Assembly: GCF_900115975.1 (NCBI RefSeq) | Contig: NZ_FOYM01000031.1 | Span: 1-45,424, forward strand | Origin: Desulfoscipio geothermicus DSM 3669 | Lineage (GTDB): Bacteria > Bacillota > Desulfotomaculia > Desulfotomaculales > Desulfallaceae | Reading direction: 5' to 3' | DNA length: 45,424 nucleotides | Part shown: positions 695-45,424 of the stretch, one piece after another | Numbering within the stretch: position 1 is the stretch's first letter | Layout of the letters: every line of letters begins with the position of its first letter | Position numbers and translations under genes: made by a program | Notes under the pieces: generated by a model | Database searches by the model: none | What the model saw: the letters and a program-made list of their open reading frames with translations, nothing else | What the model was told of the DNA's origin: nothing

Positions 695-1408
695 CTACAA
701 ATATACCGGCATGCTGCCATAAAGTGTAACGCCGTGCATCTCCACCCTGCACCCCAGGGCGTAGACCTCCACCCCGCTCTGGTAAGCCCGACGCAGGGCC
801 CTGCCGAAAAGGGGGTCGCAGCCATCATTGGGGGTGAAATATTCCCCGTCTTCCCGCTGCACCACGAACACCACCGCCGCCCGGTACCCTTCTCCCCGGG
901 CCAGCGCCAGTTCCTCCAGGTGCCTGACCCCGCGTTGCGAGGGGGCGTCAGGAAAGCGTGCTTCCCCTCGCTCCACCAGAGTTACTGATTTTACCTCCAC
1001 CAGGCACCGGCCCCGGTCCCCGGCAAGCAGAAAATCCATCCGCCCCTCCCGGTAGGGAAACTCCCGGCGCACGCCGGTATACCCCGCAAATTCCGGCAAC
1101 TCCCCCCTTTGCAAAGCGCGGTACAACAGCCGGTTGGGCAGCAGGGAATCCACGGAAACCAGTATGCCGCCGTATTCCACCAGTAACAGGGTAAAAGCCG
1201 TCCGCCGCCCCGCCACGCCGGACGGGGCCAGGTAAACGACAGCACCGGGCACCAGCAATTCCCCCATCCGGCCCGAACTGGGCACATGCACCGAAACTTC
1301 CCGCCCATCCAACGTTACCAGGGCTACAAACCTGTTTTTGCGTTCCACAAACCGTGCCTCAACCAAGTTACGGGGCAGCGGCCAATAAGTCAATCTCACC
1401 ACTTCCAT
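695..1408 (-). CDS. sfsA: SfsA family protein (sugar fermentation stimulation homologue)
   Basis: The 237-aa product matches SfsA in length and layout. An N-terminal OB-fold-like half (FVERKNRFVALVTLDG, HVPSSGRMGELLVPGA) is followed by a nuclease-like half with MDFLL, CLVEVKSVTL, the FPDAPSQRG stretch and the terminal VVFVVQRED/FTPND region. The D and ExK of the second half are the catalytic-type residues of the PD-(D/E)XK fold. SfsA proteins are linked to DNA binding and to maltose gene expression in E. coli, but the biochemical role in Firmicutes is unsettled. The gene follows floT on the same strand after 36 bases and may be read through from it. No strong Shine-Dalgarno site precedes the ATG at 1408, and slightly later GTG/TTG starts are possible. 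Confidence 0.88.
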   Translation of the reverse strand: MEVVRLTYWPLPRNLVEARFVERKNRFVALVTLDGREVSVHVPSSGRMGELLVPGAVVYLAPSGVAGRRTAFTLLLVEYGGILVSVDSLLPNRLLYRALQRGELPEFAGYTGVRREFPYREGRMDFLLAGDRGRCLVEVKSVTLVERGEARFPDAPSQRGVRHLEELALARGEGYRAAVVFVVQREDGEYFTPNDGCDPLFGRALRRAYQSGVEVYALGCRVEMHGVTLYGSMPVYL

Positions 1409-1444
1409 TTAACACATTGCCGTTAATATTATTCCATATATCAA

Positions 1445-2902
1445 TTATATTTGGCTTACCGCTTCTTTTTCCACTGCATTACTTTCAATTAATTGACTGT
1501 CTGCCCCCGCAGGAAGTTTTTCATTTGTGCTCTTTTTAAAGAAATCCATCAGGTCGTAACCGGTCAGGCCCTTCACCGTTTCCGGCAAGGTGGCCATGAT
1601 GTCGGTAATGTAACCGGACACTTTGGCGGCACCTTGGCCCTGTCCGTTACCGGAATCCACGATAACGATTTTTTCCACTTTGGCCAGGGGTTCGGCAATG
1701 CTTCTGGCAATCTCCGGCAGCTTGTCAATGATCATCTGAGCCATGGCGGCGTCGTTATATTGTTTGAAGGCTTCCGCCCTCTTCAACAGAATTTCCGCCT
1801 CAGCCTCACCTTTTTTGCGGATCACTTCCACTTCCGCGTCGCCTTCGGCGCGCCGGGCCTGGGCATTGGCCTCACCAAGCAGCTTAACGCTTTCGGCTCT
1901 GGCCTGGGCATCTTGAATGTCCTTGAACTTGATGGCCTCGGCCTGCTTTTCCTGGCTGTACTTTTCAGCATCAGCCTGCATTCTGATGGTCGCGTGCAAT
2001 TCCTTTTCCCGGCGCAGCGCTTCCTGTTCGGCCAGTTCTATTTCTTTCTTCTTCCTGACTATCTCCACCTGCATTTTTTCCTGTTCAACATTTTGCTGTA
2101 CTTTATTGGCTTCAATATCATAGGCCAAGTCTGCCCCGGCTTTTTTCGTTTCCTGTTCCTGCCTGTACTGGTGAACCTTCAGTTCTTTCTCCTTGGAGGC
2201 TTCGGCAATCTGGGTTTCCGCCAGCAGCCGGGCTTCCTCACCCAGCCGGTTGGCTTCGGCAGTGCGAATTTGGGTTTCTTTCAGGGCTTCCGCTTCGGCA
2301 ATGTCGGCATCACGCTTTACTTCGGCAATCCGCTTTTTGCCCAGAGCCTCGAGGTAACCGTTATCATCGGCAATGTCCCTGATGGTAAACGCCTTTATCT
2401 CCAAACCCATTTCCGCCAGGTCCACGGCGGCCACTTCCTGCACCTGGGAGGCAAACTTTTCCCGGTCTTTATATATTTCTTCCACGGTAAGCTTGGAAAT
2501 AATCTCCCGCAGCTTTCCTTCCAGCACATCTTTGGCGGTATCTTTAATTACGCCGATAGTGTCGGTTTCCTTACCGGTGTTGAACTGCTCCAGCGCCGAA
2601 AGGATGGACTCCTTATCGGACTTGACTTTTATGACCGCCACGCCGTCCGCCTTGATGTCCACGCCCTGTTCCGTCAGGGCGCCCCGGGTCTCCACGTTGA
2701 TTTTCATGTTCTCCAGCGAAATTCTGTCCGCCCGCTCCAAAAGCGGAATAACAAAGCCCCCTCCACCGGAGATGACCCGTTTTTTCAAACCGGTAACTAC
2801 CAGCGCTTTATCCTGCGATACCTTTTTCCACATTGTTACTACGCTTAAGGATAAAAGTATAAGGACTACAACAATGATGGCTGCAACATATAACGTACCC
2901 AT
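1445..2902 (-). CDS. floT: Flotillin-like SPFH/band 7 membrane scaffold protein
   Basis: The 485-aa product has the flotillin plan. One hydrophobic N-terminal segment (residues about 3-25) is followed by an SPFH domain (GGGGFVIPLLERADRI through the TIRDIADDNGYLEALG region) and then a long Glu/Ala-rich coiled coil with repeated EAE/KEKE blocks (about 200-390). The tail is Gly-rich. Flotillins mark ordered membrane microdomains and help protein assembly and membrane fluidity. It lies 14 bases after nfeD, the same pairing as yuaF-floT in Bacillus. I chose ATG 2902 because AGGAG is 8 bases upstream; ATG 2908 would be only 2 bases from it. It is the last gene of the sigma/pspA/nfeD unit. Confidence 0.9.
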   Translation of the reverse strand: MGTLYVAAIIVVVLILLSLSVVTMWKKVSQDKALVVTGLKKRVISGGGGFVIPLLERADRISLENMKINVETRGALTEQGVDIKADGVAVIKVKSDKESILSALEQFNTGKETDTIGVIKDTAKDVLEGKLREIISKLTVEEIYKDREKFASQVQEVAAVDLAEMGLEIKAFTIRDIADDNGYLEALGKKRIAEVKRDADIAEAEALKETQIRTAEANRLGEEARLLAETQIAEASKEKELKVHQYRQEQETKKAGADLAYDIEANKVQQNVEQEKMQVEIVRKKKEIELAEQEALRREKELHATIRMQADAEKYSQEKQAEAIKFKDIQDAQARAESVKLLGEANAQARRAEGDAEVEVIRKKGEAEAEILLKRAEAFKQYNDAAMAQMIIDKLPEIARSIAEPLAKVEKIVIVDSGNGQGQGAAKVSGYITDIMATLPETVKGLTGYDLMDFFKKSTNEKLPAGADSQLIESNAVEKEAVSQI

Positions 2903-2916
2903 TTCCATTTCTCCTT

Positions 2917-3447
2917 TCAAATTTTGGTAACCAGGAATACATTTCTGTTAATGTCCACAATGACCACCCTGACCCCCCTGGGTATTTCATCTCCGTCCAC
3001 AGACCTGGCCGGCGCAGAGTATGTATTGTCGTTAACCACATAAGTAATGCGGCCAAAGCTGCTGCCCTTGATATCCAACTGTACCTGCGCCGGCATACCG
3101 ACCAAATCTTTTTGGGATACCGCGGCGGTGTTTTGCACCTTGTACAGCGGTACGATCAGAAACCTGAATAAAATAAACGAAACCAGCCAGCCGCAGAAAA
3201 CAGCCGCCGCCAGGGTGCCAAACACCCCCAACTTCAGGTGTTGCAGGCCAATAATACCCACTCCACCGAATACGGTGATAAATGCCGCGATGACCACCGG
3301 TTTAAAAGGTGAAATCATGGATTCACCCGAGCCGGAATCAACATCACCGCCCAATTCCCCAAAATCAAGCAACTGCCCCAGTATAAACGATGCCGCGGTA
3401 AAAAGCGCTCCCACCCAGAAGCATAGCTGAAATACTTTCAGTAACAT
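2917..3447 (-). CDS. NfeD/YuaF-like membrane protein
   Basis: The 176-aa protein has three hydrophobic segments (about residues 5-27, 48-66 and 75-97), then a C-terminal soluble domain of about 70 residues with the small beta-barrel pattern of NfeD (LVGMPAQVQLDIKG, GRITYVVNDNTY, RGVRVVIVDINRNVFLV). NfeD proteins without the protease domain partner flotillins or stomatins and are thought to stabilise them at the membrane. The gene sits directly upstream of the flotillin gene and downstream of pspA. An acidic, Gly-rich loop (residues about 31-43) separates the first two helices. The Shine-Dalgarno site before ATG 3447 is weak. Confidence 0.85.
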   Translation of the reverse strand: MLLKVFQLCFWVGALFTAASFILGQLLDFGELGGDVDSGSGESMISPFKPVVIAAFITVFGGVGIIGLQHLKLGVFGTLAAAVFCGWLVSFILFRFLIVPLYKVQNTAAVSQKDLVGMPAQVQLDIKGSSFGRITYVVNDNTYSAPARSVDGDEIPRGVRVVIVDINRNVFLVTKI

Positions 3448-25141: not shown

Positions 25142-25420
25142 AAAAAAACCGCCCCGTAAAGGGACGGATGTTTTCCGCGTTACCACCCTAATTGGACCGG
25201 TTGCTAAAAATACCGTGATAATCTGGCCACATTTTTAGCCGGACCCTCTTTGATTACCGTTAACGGCGGCTGCCGGACCGGCTTAATCTCCAGCGGATTT
25301 CAGCCGTCGCCTCCCGGGTGATTTTCAGGCGGCTTTACTGTACCCGGTTCGCACCCCGGCCCGGGCTCTCTGAACAGGTCACCGCTTACTCGTCCCGCTC
25401 ATCGGCTTTTACTATAACAA
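25142..25420 (-). promoter_or_regulatory. T-box riboswitch leader of ileS (Ile specifier)
   Basis: On the minus strand the T-box core AGGGTGGTAACGCGG (25175-25189) is followed by CCGTCCC-TTTAC-GGGGCGG and seven T residues (25142-25167), the intrinsic terminator. The CCGTCCC arm can alternatively pair in the antiterminator. Upstream, Stem I features AGTA and AGAGAG are present, and an ATC (25320-25322) in an AAAATCA context fits the isoleucine specifier codon. Uncharged tRNA-Ile is expected to stabilise antitermination and raise ileS expression. The specifier is my reading and not a folded model. Confidence 0.9.
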
Positions 25421-43472: not shown

Positions 43473-45044
43473 TCATTGTTTTTTCTCGCCCTCCCGCCAT
43501 CGCCGAACAAACTCCCGCGCCTCCGCCCCGGTCTGCACCACCCCTTCCGCCTGGGCGTCCGCCAGCGCTTCCAGCACGCGTCTCACCAGGGGCGATGGTT
43601 TTATACCCAGGAGGGAACAAACCTCCGCCCCGTCAAGCAGCCGTGGCGGAGATACATACAGGTGGCCCTGGTTGTAGTATTTATGCAACATGTCAGCGAT
43701 AAATTTATTATAAGCAGCGGCTGCCTCCACCTGCCCGGAGGCCAGGCGGCTGGAGGCAACGTCCGCCAGGGACAGCAGCAACAGCCCCGGGGCTTCCCGT
43801 CCGGCCCGCCGAAAGAACCGGCGCACGGCCCTTGGTGTGACGGGAGCCGACTTGTAAAGAAAAAGCAGGTCCATATGCTGCCCCACCAGCGTGGCCAAAA
43901 CCTCCCCTTCCCGCTTGCTCAGTTTAAGCCTTTGGGCCACCGACCGGGCCACGGGCTCACCGGCCCGGTTATGCCCGTAAAAGGTGTACTTGCCGTTGCC
44001 CGCGTATTCACGGCAAAATTGCTTGCCGACATCGTGCAGCAGGCAAGCCAGCTTCAGCACCGGCAGGCGGGAACGGCCCCGGGTAATGTTTTGCGCCAGG
44101 TATTCTTGCAGGCCATTGCGTACACCATCGGGCAACCCGGATAAAAAGGCGCGCCCAAACCGGGCGACAGTAACGTCCCTATCCTCGCCGCCCGCGGTAA
44201 TGGTCTTTCCCGTTAACTGGGTTCGACCGCCCTTCGCGGCCTTTGTTACCCCTTCCCTGCCCGCGGGTGTTCCCGGCACCAGCGTCTCAAACCGTTCCAG
44301 CGCCTTCAGACTGTGCTCCCAGGCGTCGTCCACATGATATCCCCCCTGCTGCAGTCCCTTCAGGGGCACAATCTCGGGAAAAATCTGCTCCAGCAAAGTC
44401 GTTTGACCATTCATCAGCCTGACAATGGACGATGACGCTTTATGTAAAATGGCAAACAGCTCATCCCGGATTCTTTCTCCGGCACACACGGTGATAGGCC
44501 GGCGCATGTGCCGGATAAGCTGCAAAGTGTCCGGCGCAAGGACAAACCCCAGCCCGGCCGAGAACCGGAAGGCGCGCAGCGCCCGCAAGGGATCGTCCTC
44601 AATGGCGGCGGAGCTGCAAGCCCTAATAATACCTTTGCGCAAGTCCTCCATGCCGCCCAGGGGGTCGATAACACTGTTTTCAAGAAATGATCCGCCACAA
44701 TAAGCGGCCAGGGGCAACGACAGGGCGTTAATGGTAAAATCGCGCCTTCGCAAGTCCGCAACCAGCCCACCTTCCGGCATGCCCTCCAGATCCAGCTGAA
44801 CGGTTTGCTCTCCCGCCTGTAATATCAGCCGGTGAATATCCCGTCTTTCATCCAGGGGCACCGGCGTACCGGAGAGCTTTTCGGCTAATTCCAGTGCCAG
44901 ATTTTTCGCCCGGCCCTCCACCAGCAGGTCCACGTCACCGGCCGCCCGGCCCTGGATTTTATCACGCAAGTAACCGCCCACCAGGTAGACATTCATGCCC
45001 CGAACGGTTATCAGTTCCTTGATATTTAGTATGATCCGATCCAT
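43473..45044 (-). CDS. CCA tRNA nucleotidyltransferase / poly(A) polymerase family with HD domain
   Basis: The 523-aa protein has the class II nucleotidyltransferase head: LVGGYLRDKIQGR, DVDLLVEG (catalytic Asp pair), RRDFTINALSLPL, and IEDDPLRALRAFRFSAGLGF. An HD phosphohydrolase region follows (HVDDAWEHSLKALE, then LACLLHDVGK, YGHNRAGE). It adds or repairs the tRNA 3' CCA or A residues; sequence alone does not separate CCA- from A-adding enzymes. ATG 45044 has AGGTG 6 bases upstream; the longer GTG 45053 lies inside that site. The segment with GTPAGREGVTKAAKGG (near 260-310) is an unusual low-complexity insertion between the two conserved HD pieces. Confidence 0.92.
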   Translation of the reverse strand: MDRIILNIKELITVRGMNVYLVGGYLRDKIQGRAAGDVDLLVEGRAKNLALELAEKLSGTPVPLDERRDIHRLILQAGEQTVQLDLEGMPEGGLVADLRRRDFTINALSLPLAAYCGGSFLENSVIDPLGGMEDLRKGIIRACSSAAIEDDPLRALRAFRFSAGLGFVLAPDTLQLIRHMRRPITVCAGERIRDELFAILHKASSSIVRLMNGQTTLLEQIFPEIVPLKGLQQGGYHVDDAWEHSLKALERFETLVPGTPAGREGVTKAAKGGRTQLTGKTITAGGEDRDVTVARFGRAFLSGLPDGVRNGLQEYLAQNITRGRSRLPVLKLACLLHDVGKQFCREYAGNGKYTFYGHNRAGEPVARSVAQRLKLSKREGEVLATLVGQHMDLLFLYKSAPVTPRAVRRFFRRAGREAPGLLLLSLADVASSRLASGQVEAAAAYNKFIADMLHKYYNQGHLYVSPPRLLDGAEVCSLLGIKPSPLVRRVLEALADAQAEGVVQTGAEAREFVRRWREGEKKQ

Positions 45045-45226
45045 TTCTATCACCTGCGGCTGCCATAGATTAATTCGCGTTTCAGCGTCCCAAAGAACGA
45101 TGCCATGCAGGCATGGTCTTCCCCCGATAAATTAGACAGTGATTTAAGCGCTTTTTCTTTGTTTTTCACAGTTTTTTACGTAAGCAATTTAACATGAAGC
45201 TTATCCTCAACATGACGGACCGGCGG

Positions 45227-45350
45227 CCTTGACATCCACCCTGCGCGTGTTGATTATTAATTACCGACGGGCGGCTCCAGGAAACATACACTTAGATACA
45301 AGCCCGTCTGAATTGCAAGTGTAACACGCGCCGGGGCCCGTCTGTCAAGG
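45227..45350. ncRNA. Unassigned nested inverted-repeat element with possible pseudoknot
   Basis: Three nested perfect helices are visible: CCTTGACA/TGTCAAGG (45227-45234 with 45343-45350), GCGCGTGTT/AACACGCGC (45243-45251 with 45323-45331) and GACGGGC/GCCCGTC (45266-45272 with 45302-45308). A fourth pair, ACACTT (45288-45293, in the inner loop) with AAGTGT (45317-45322), would make a pseudoknot stacked on the second helix. I recognise no known riboswitch. It lies about 180 bases upstream of the CCA-family gene on the minus strand; the plus-strand neighbour is outside the window. It could instead be the end of a mobile element. The rest of 45045-45424 shows only AT-rich DNA and a small GCCATGC/GCATGG palindrome near 45102-45115. 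Confidence 0.5.
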
Positions 45351-45424
45351 CTTCCCTTCGGCGCCTTATTTACAGTACATGGCTTTTCCCTCTGGGCTCA
45401 CCTAAAAACATAACTTTTTAATAT

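Follow-up and report, generated by a model that had tools for sequence, protein, structure and literature searches.

What is the structured element that lies close to the right-hand end of contig NZ_FOYM01000031.1 of Desulfoscipio geothermicus DSM 3669? The stretch analysed, here called the window, is that entire contig (G000:C68, 45,424 bases); an earlier inspection of its letters alone (the sequence-only reading) had picked out four mutually compatible pairings within 124 bases, and had preferred a structured RNA to a plain terminator. Our analysis supports that preference: relatives of the element show many compensatory changes, and in four of five helices G·U pairs exceed A·C pairs on one strand. 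Very probably, the element is a single copy of an apparently unnamed structured RNA of bacteria, about 200 nucleotides (nt) long, and a function at the RNA level is well supported. It is highly likely that this RNA, consisting of a conserved 5' block and a 144-nt core on the minus strand, is a module of insertion sequences (IS) of several families.

The Element and Its Fold

All four pairings were found exactly where they had been read. On the plus strand, an 8-base-pair (bp) helix joins CCTTGACA (45227–45234) to TGTCAAGG (45343–45350), a 9-bp helix joins GCGCGTGTT (45243–45251) to AACACGCGC (45323–45331), and a 7-bp helix joins GACGGGC (45266–45272) to GCCCGTC (45302–45308); a 6-bp pseudoknot pairing links ACACTT (45288–45293) with AAGTGT (45317–45322). 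When the 124 bases were shuffled by mononucleotide, nested perfect helices of 8, 9, and 7 bp appeared in none of 20,000 trials (any one perfect 8-bp inverted repeat appeared in 361 of 5,000), and the folding z-scores for 45222–45352 are −4.06 on the plus strand and −3.72 on the minus strand.

Read on the minus strand, the core (144 nt, 45222–45365) is a full-length match to our covariance model R1 (cmsearch, 139 bits, model positions 1–147); the window copy is itself among the 25 sequences behind the model. The layout of the core is helix P0, a small hairpin, and helices P1, P2, and P3, with a pseudoknot (PK2) that joins the P1/P2 junction to the P3 loop. P0, a helix additional to those first listed, pairs GGCG (45362–45365) with CGCC (45222–45225); 96.7% of its cells are paired, with both-side changes in three of its four pairs. 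P1, the 8-bp helix, pairs CCUUGACA (45343–45350) with UGUCAAGG (45227–45234; 91.9% of cells paired); P2, the 9-bp helix, pairs GCGCGUGUU (45323–45331) with AACACGCGC (45243–45251; 94.8%); and P3, the 7-bp helix, pairs GACGGGC (45302–45308) with GCCCGUC (45266–45272; 83.9%). In PK2, the junction strand CGGG (45337–45340) pairs with CCUG in the P3 loop (45278–45281), four pairs that can be read directly in the window copy. The conserved unit reaches beyond the 124 bases first noted, to about 45413: a 5' block, UUAUGUUUUUAGGUGAGCCC (45394–45413), is evident in an alignment of 77 sequences and covaries with an internal block in the P3 loop, GUAUGUUUCCUGG (45277–45289), which matches it and contains the loop strand of PK2.

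No T-run follows the element and no frame of at least 60 amino acids covers it, both as originally described. A plain terminator is ruled out by the missing T-run together with a family that shows compensatory changes and a pseudoknot. The sequence-only reading had matched the element to no known class, and a scan of the element against Rfam 15 likewise returned nothing at the gathering threshold and nothing at E ≤ 10, so an already catalogued Rfam RNA was dropped as its identity; at E ≤ 5 over 27 further loci (19 with the RNA, seven with other structured RNAs, and one without), no hit overlapped the RNA.

Covariation, Strand, and Pseudoknots

Covarying pairs in homologues had been named beforehand as the support to look for, and a covariance search did find homologues with compensatory changes. 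Model R1 was built from an alignment of 25 hand-chosen loci (A1) that omitted L001 (the same as the window copy), L048 (a poor match), and short matches. A wider alignment of 53 loci (A3) was hand-chosen for spread and includes a rearranged IS3 subfamily; in it, 84.4% of 2,635 cells are standard pairs, both partners change in 29 of 50 pairs, and the covariation score of 0.231 compares with 0.132 in shuffled alignments (none of 500 reached the observed score) and at most 0.089 with partners slid. Most of the covariation is carried by P2 (11 of 13 pairs with both-side changes), while the sequence of P1 is largely invariant.

G·U and A·C pairs were counted on the window's minus strand in the 77-row alignment, which omitted L116b, L096, L082, L081, L080, L095, L126, L051, and exact duplicates. 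Over five helices there are 172 G·U against 74 A·C pairs (P0, 12 and 8; P1, 17 and 8; P2, 52 and 16; PK2, 58 and 8; P3, 33 and 34). Because G·U pairs outnumber A·C pairs there, the minus strand is likely the RNA strand, with the core running from 45365 to 45222.

The two pseudoknots are kept to different degrees. The ACACTT/AAGTGT pairing (45288–45322), part of the sequence-only reading, is present in the window copy but is poorly kept in the family, where 39% of cells are paired; five of its six pairs show both-side changes in A3, and in A1 half of the cells (50%) pair in another register. Some form of it may possibly exist in part of the family, in a gappy loop that may take other registers. 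PK2 is well kept, with 84.2% of family cells paired.

Copies in the Genome and Distribution

The element lies in a 311-bp repeat (45114–45424, minus strand) that BLAST places in two other contigs of the genome at 100% and 98.7% identity, and that corresponds to the right-end part of an IS3-family insertion sequence without its transposase part. A further copy in C32 is about 73% identical; one more place, in C75, comes from the covariance model and brings the total for the genome to five. The repeat runs to the contig end at 45424, which falls inside the 5' flank of the RNA; the repeat is probably the reason that the contig ends there.

A DNA search gave matches in 36 of 150 genomes, the organism's own counted. 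At E ≤ 1e-4, R1 matched 38 of the 113 genomes searched in the order and 20 of the 398 searched in the phylum; six of these 20 belong to the same order, and a few of the others are weak (E above 1e-5). Two further searches do not give independent counts: the 113 genomes of the order search were also those of a class-level search, and another search drew largely on the genomes of the phylum search. One genome (G046) holds ten strong R1 places. Carriers in a separate pattern scan of 12 contigs were Desulfofundulus, Desulforamulus putei, Desulfovirgula, Syntrophomonadaceae, Thermoanaerobacteraceae, and Bacillota. Plasmid records searched with the window copy gave no match; in the IMG/VR viral collection, L206 (4458–4476) is the only contig with the exact 19-base P3-loop motif.

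Insertion Sequences That Carry the RNA

A conserved position before one gene family had been expected of a cis-regulatory RNA. The position found is another one: the RNA lies 3' of the transposase in several IS families (IS3, ISLre2, ISNCY-like, IS21, ISL3, and IS110) and, with orientation reversed, in IS481, seven families in all. Scattered copies at the end of a transposable element had been foreseen as a reason to give up the RNA interpretation, as had homologues without compensatory changes; the former were found, but the homologues did show compensatory changes, and the combination of a transposable-element end with such changes indicates an RNA travelling inside transposable elements.

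We surveyed 85 places against 16 reference transposases taken from these loci, with a reach of 300 nt. The RNA lies 3' of a reference transposase and on the same strand in 45 places, stands tail-to-tail with one in seven (six of them IS481-like), and adjoins an IS256 gene in one, so that 53 of the 85 adjoin a transposase; the other 32 have no reference transposase within reach, some of them at contig ends. The IS110 and ISL3 assignments are one place each, and the ISNCY-like locus L033, counted as sense, has an IS481-type end between its transposase and the RNA, which may belong to that IS481. By Pfam, the neighbouring genes are UPF0236 (ISLre2), rve (IS3), IstB_IS21, DEDD_Tnp_IS110, DDE_Tnp_ISL3, and a type with HTH_28 and weak rve_3 that we take to be ISNCY-like; the tail-to-tail type is presumably IS481-like. 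Partly on the basis of Pfam, we take IS3, IS481, IS21, and ISNCY-like elements to have an rve-type core and ISLre2, ISL3, and IS110 to have none.

Complete elements could be delimited in three genomes: a 1,921-bp ISLre2 element in G046 (six copies compared, with direct repeats of about 9 bp at both ends), a 1,765-bp ISLre2 element in G205 (four copies, with direct repeats of 8 bp in three and longer in the fourth), and an IS3 element of about 1,589 bp in G181 (three copies, direct repeats of about 4 bp). In all of them the RNA follows the transposase gene and precedes the right end, and the core ends 75–106 nt before the end of the IS (three elements measured). By eye, the transposase stop codon falls within about 10 nt of the conserved 5' block in 22 of 60 places.

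Some ISLre2 elements show TTGACA close to the right tip and TAAAAT close to the left one (L097, 696–2616; L103, 1241–3005; by eye), so that a circle junction could form a −35/−10 promoter; for L116 (about 1346–3150), the right-tip TTGACA was seen only in its relatives. In C75 of the present genome, an RNA-carrying IS481-like element splits a DUF3800 gene, with a DUF3800-VII RNA (RF02967) behind the second half (L112, 2414–4788); a DUF3800-associated RNA was rejected as an identity because the gene and its RNA stand beside this copy through the insertion that breaks the gene.

Elsewhere in the window, the minus-strand open frame at 43473–45053 resembles what we take to be a tRNA nucleotidyltransferase with an HD-type domain, and the RNA-bearing IS remnant lies about 60 bp ahead of its listed start. 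A T-box leader was found at 25157–25411 (minus strand, 120.2 bits).

An Apparently Exchanged Module

The RNA seems to have been exchanged between IS families whose flanks are unlike, as judged from pairwise alignments. Within one genome, an IS3 copy (L139) and an IS481 copy (L032) are 90% identical over 232 nt, a match that stops 58 nt ahead of the core on one side and 25 nt past it on the other. Between L050 (ISNCY-like) and L054 (IS3), identity is 84% over 197 nt (−35 to +4), and in two ISNCY-like elements the RNA is 89% identical from −43 to +4 while the transposases are only 47% alike.

The present genome offers one IS3-family end with the RNA (L003, C81) and one without it (L205, C39). 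Their flanks match save for a few bases, and the sole difference is one 281-bp segment, whose window part spans 45145–45424; the right terminal part of the IS, TCTTCCCCCGATAAATTAGACAGTGATTT (plus strand, 45116–45144), is common to the RNA-less copy. A transposase fragment adjoins L003, and by this alignment the window copy is a remnant of an IS3 element of the L003 type that has lost its transposase part or is separated from it by the contig end. Were the window copy a miniature inverted-repeat transposable element or internal-deletion derivative, its left end would lie beyond the contig; in L138, the start of a transposase is kept together with the right IS end. In an IS3 end of L180 (from 2122 on the RNA strand), the 5' block and both arms of P0 are kept with nothing between them (by eye against L121). 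In G091:C119, L036 has two RNA copies about 380 nt apart (974–1123 and 1501–1649), one of which is flanked by IS481-type sequence on its 5' side and by IS3-type sequence on its 3' side, resembling a natural chimera.

Some IS3 relatives carry other structures. Behind the IS3 transposase stop codon, at the position that the RNA would occupy, L197, L175, and L181 have motifs CCUUGAC/GUCAAGG, GUGGUAAAAU-like, and GACGGGC in the same order and seem to hold a divergent class of it; long hairpins of other kinds stand there in L184/L186 and L174/L185, and L172 has none of these structures. These descriptions of divergent RNAs are readings of few sequences.

Two Matching Blocks

The 5' block has the consensus CAUGUUYYYUGG followed by UGAGCC, and the block in the P3 loop CAUGUUYYYCGG followed by AGCC. 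The two vary jointly, being ACCUGUU in one ISLre2 group, ACAUGCUU in L143 and L144, and AUAUGACCC in L078. In a test that used 74 of the 77 rows (66 distinct RNAs), identity between the blocks of one RNA is 0.716, against 0.502 ± 0.021 when blocks are permuted among RNAs (0 of 5,000). The UG-to-GG distance agrees in 48 of the 52 distinct block pairs readable by the patterns (28 with 8, 20 with 9, and four discordant). The P3-loop block also pairs better with its own junction than with the junctions of others (−10.83 against −9.85; 1 of 5,000 permutations). The figures from these block tests are not clean probabilities, because permutation leaves relatedness in.

The matching blocks are not clearly visible in the divergent class (best in one of the three), and six IS examined held no further near-copy of both blocks. 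The best complement to the blocks is the junction strand in two of these six IS and differs in the other four; antisense action on the IS's own genes was rejected, there being no consistent outside complement in the six.

Possible Mechanism and Alternatives

As a whole, the statement we favour combines a structured IS module with co-transcriptional strand exchange that sets the fate of IS transcripts; we offer it tentatively and would place it a little short of an even chance. In most carriers the RNA would be the 3' tail of the transposase transcript, and in IS481 it would lie on a transcript entering from the IS end. The 5' block, made first, could touch the junction strand; the P3-loop block, made later, would displace it there by forming PK2. 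The final fold may then control the fate of IS-derived transcripts, through decay, termination or read-through, or a host factor, and that fate would in turn set the activity or the cost of the IS. A role bound to the transposase cannot be general, because in IS481 the RNA is opposite to the transposase, and, since the carrier transposases belong to different families, the RNA would probably act by itself or through a host factor.

A number of observations weigh against this proposal. Related IS3 elements exist without the RNA: 11 of 30 relatives of the L054 transposase have it at more than 90 bits, several of the 30 loci being partial. Six IS481 copies have the RNA convergent with the transposase, for which reason it cannot be solely a transposase 3' untranslated region, an account that we reject as a general one. 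No promoter or terminator common to the family was seen by reading, and no dedicated scan was run. The 5' block favours its own junction only slightly (171 of 5,000 permutations reach the observed value), and variants ending in AGG (L002, L004, and L143) do not, by eye, suit strand exchange. PK2 rests on percent paired and on G·U pairs, with both-side changes in only two cells, and P3 lacks strand asymmetry. Our own stricter, tree-based test clearly passed only two P2 pairs (E 0.000), one more reaching 0.417; the top pairs of a second covariation test were again in P2, with many chance-like pairs between subfamily-specific columns close behind (L040 was omitted from both tests because of an N). 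The tree-based result weighs on claims about single pairs and not on the structure as a whole.

The strongest competing reading makes the element an independent small RNA of the IS that acts in trans, in the manner of a guide or by binding protein, and whose blocks would be two equivalent sites for one outside partner, either a protein dimer or a nucleic acid able to pair with each block. Such a role is possible, if on the doubtful side. It would suit blocks that keep the same lineage-specific sequence and spacing, and an IS481 type that keeps the G·U excess on the same RNA strand (24 against 6 in eight copies, six of them beside a transposase); transposases of different families point to a host partner or to none. 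The six IS, with their inconsistent best complements and no additional near-copy of the blocks, argue the other way, as does the failure to recognise a common promoter by reading.

We think it improbable that the RNA is a selfish mobile module, a ribozyme or an RNA copied by a trans-acting enzyme, for which the IS are mere vehicles. Sharing between different IS, presence and absence with a sharp 281-bp boundary, the 32 places that lack a listed transposase nearby, and the sharp starts of the 5' block in several pairs are what one would look for in such a module; its boundaries, however, vary between pairs from different IS (−35 to −58 on the 5' side and +3 to +25 of the core on the 3' side), and the 281-bp segment has no clear duplication. 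Some solitary copies (L138 and L001) retain the right end of the IS and may represent IS with internal deletions, and no Rfam ribozyme or intron family matches at the element.

Still less probable is a feature of the DNA itself, a cruciform or a protein-binding palindrome at the IS end. Palindromes also work in DNA, the element is close to the IS end, P1 contains TTGACA with little sequence change, and P3 is without the G·U excess; against this stand the one-stranded excess over the five helices, strongest in PK2 (58 to 8), and the pseudoknot and matched blocks, which make no obvious sense in double-stranded DNA. A 6S-like decoy that mimics a promoter, with UUGACA in a helix and UAnAAU in a loop 19–22 nt farther on, is very unlikely: both motifs are strongly conserved in the family, but a divergent IS3 relative has CCUUGAC only about 7 nt before UAAAAU, so that the promoter spacing is not kept, and there is no match in Rfam, which we take to include the 6S family.

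Comparison with Known Systems

A simple insertion sequence is usually viewed as a transposase between two ends. If our interpretation is right, a pseudoknotted RNA in seven IS families, some of them distantly related, would mean that in many IS the transposase is accompanied by a second component, an RNA whose task is shared. It is conceivable, though we rate it as rather unlikely, that this is an undescribed class of transposon-borne RNA, an accessory of general use that DDE-type IS and IS110 alike carry in one orientation or the other, and whose two blocks of 12–13 nt (at the 5' edge and in the P3 loop) co-vary and are recognised as equivalents, as in guide or strand-exchange RNAs; the divergent structured RNAs in other IS3 elements would then be further classes of this accessory. 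The covariance model, the complete elements with target duplications, and the natural plus/minus pair in one genome make a concrete, testable object that bears on the means by which IS regulate their transcripts or the burden they place on the host, and the co-varying blocks are an unusual signature for which any mechanism must account.

In the titles and abstract openings of open-licence literature, the scope of our search (which left aside subscription papers and supplements), no such RNA is described in these IS; an earlier sighting is possible, for example in PMC11109978, PMC2864571, or PMC8632094, sources that were available to us in part. The Transposase-resistance motif (PMC2864571) is, in the part of that source available, another candidate structured motif named for transposases, a likeness of name that may or may not extend to the sequence. 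A pyrrolysine readthrough element, as far as the accessible part of its source describes it (PMC3639795), was rejected, the transposase stops near the RNA being TAA, TAG, or TGA.

The mobile/repeat sequence candidates (MRSC) of Breaker and colleagues (PMC11109978, seen in part) are comparable as structured motifs with several copies per genome, transposases nearby, and covariation. The present RNA shows the same traits, with five places in its own genome, ten strong ones in G046, transposases at 53 of 85 places, and covariation. It differs from MRSC-65-2, which in the part seen is a single long stem, in that its four helices are joined by a pseudoknot and it sits within IS of several families; this sets it apart from MRSC-65-2 by description only, and identity with another MRSC is possible.

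The omega RNAs (reRNAs) of TnpB in IS200/IS605 and IS607, and those of IscB/IsrB (HEARO), are structured RNAs, a few hundred nucleotides long, that are found at one end of an IS and in many cases 3' of its gene. The present RNA is similarly placed, but the genes beside it are IS3, ISLre2, ISNCY-like, IS21, ISL3, IS110, and IS481 transposases; it has no Rfam match (Rfam presumably includes HEARO), and it shows neither the 3' overlap with tnpB nor the guide at the transposon end that mark the TnpB omega RNA. With 75–106 nt between the core and the IS end in the three elements measured, there is no guide next to the flank. A scaffold for an IscB-type RNA-guided nuclease was tentatively set aside, as the RRXRR domain (PF14239) had no match in the genome, though control genomes were likewise silent.

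IStrons, which combine a group I intron with an IS, are alike in joining to an IS an RNA module, which could lower the cost of insertion; they differ in that no group I intron family of Rfam matches at the element, Rfam being the extent of the search for splice-site signatures. IS110 bridge RNAs and IS1111 seekRNAs are IS-borne RNAs with two sequence-related sites. Only one of the 85 places adjoins an IS110 transposase, and the comparison with the bridge RNA covered the sameness of the two blocks.
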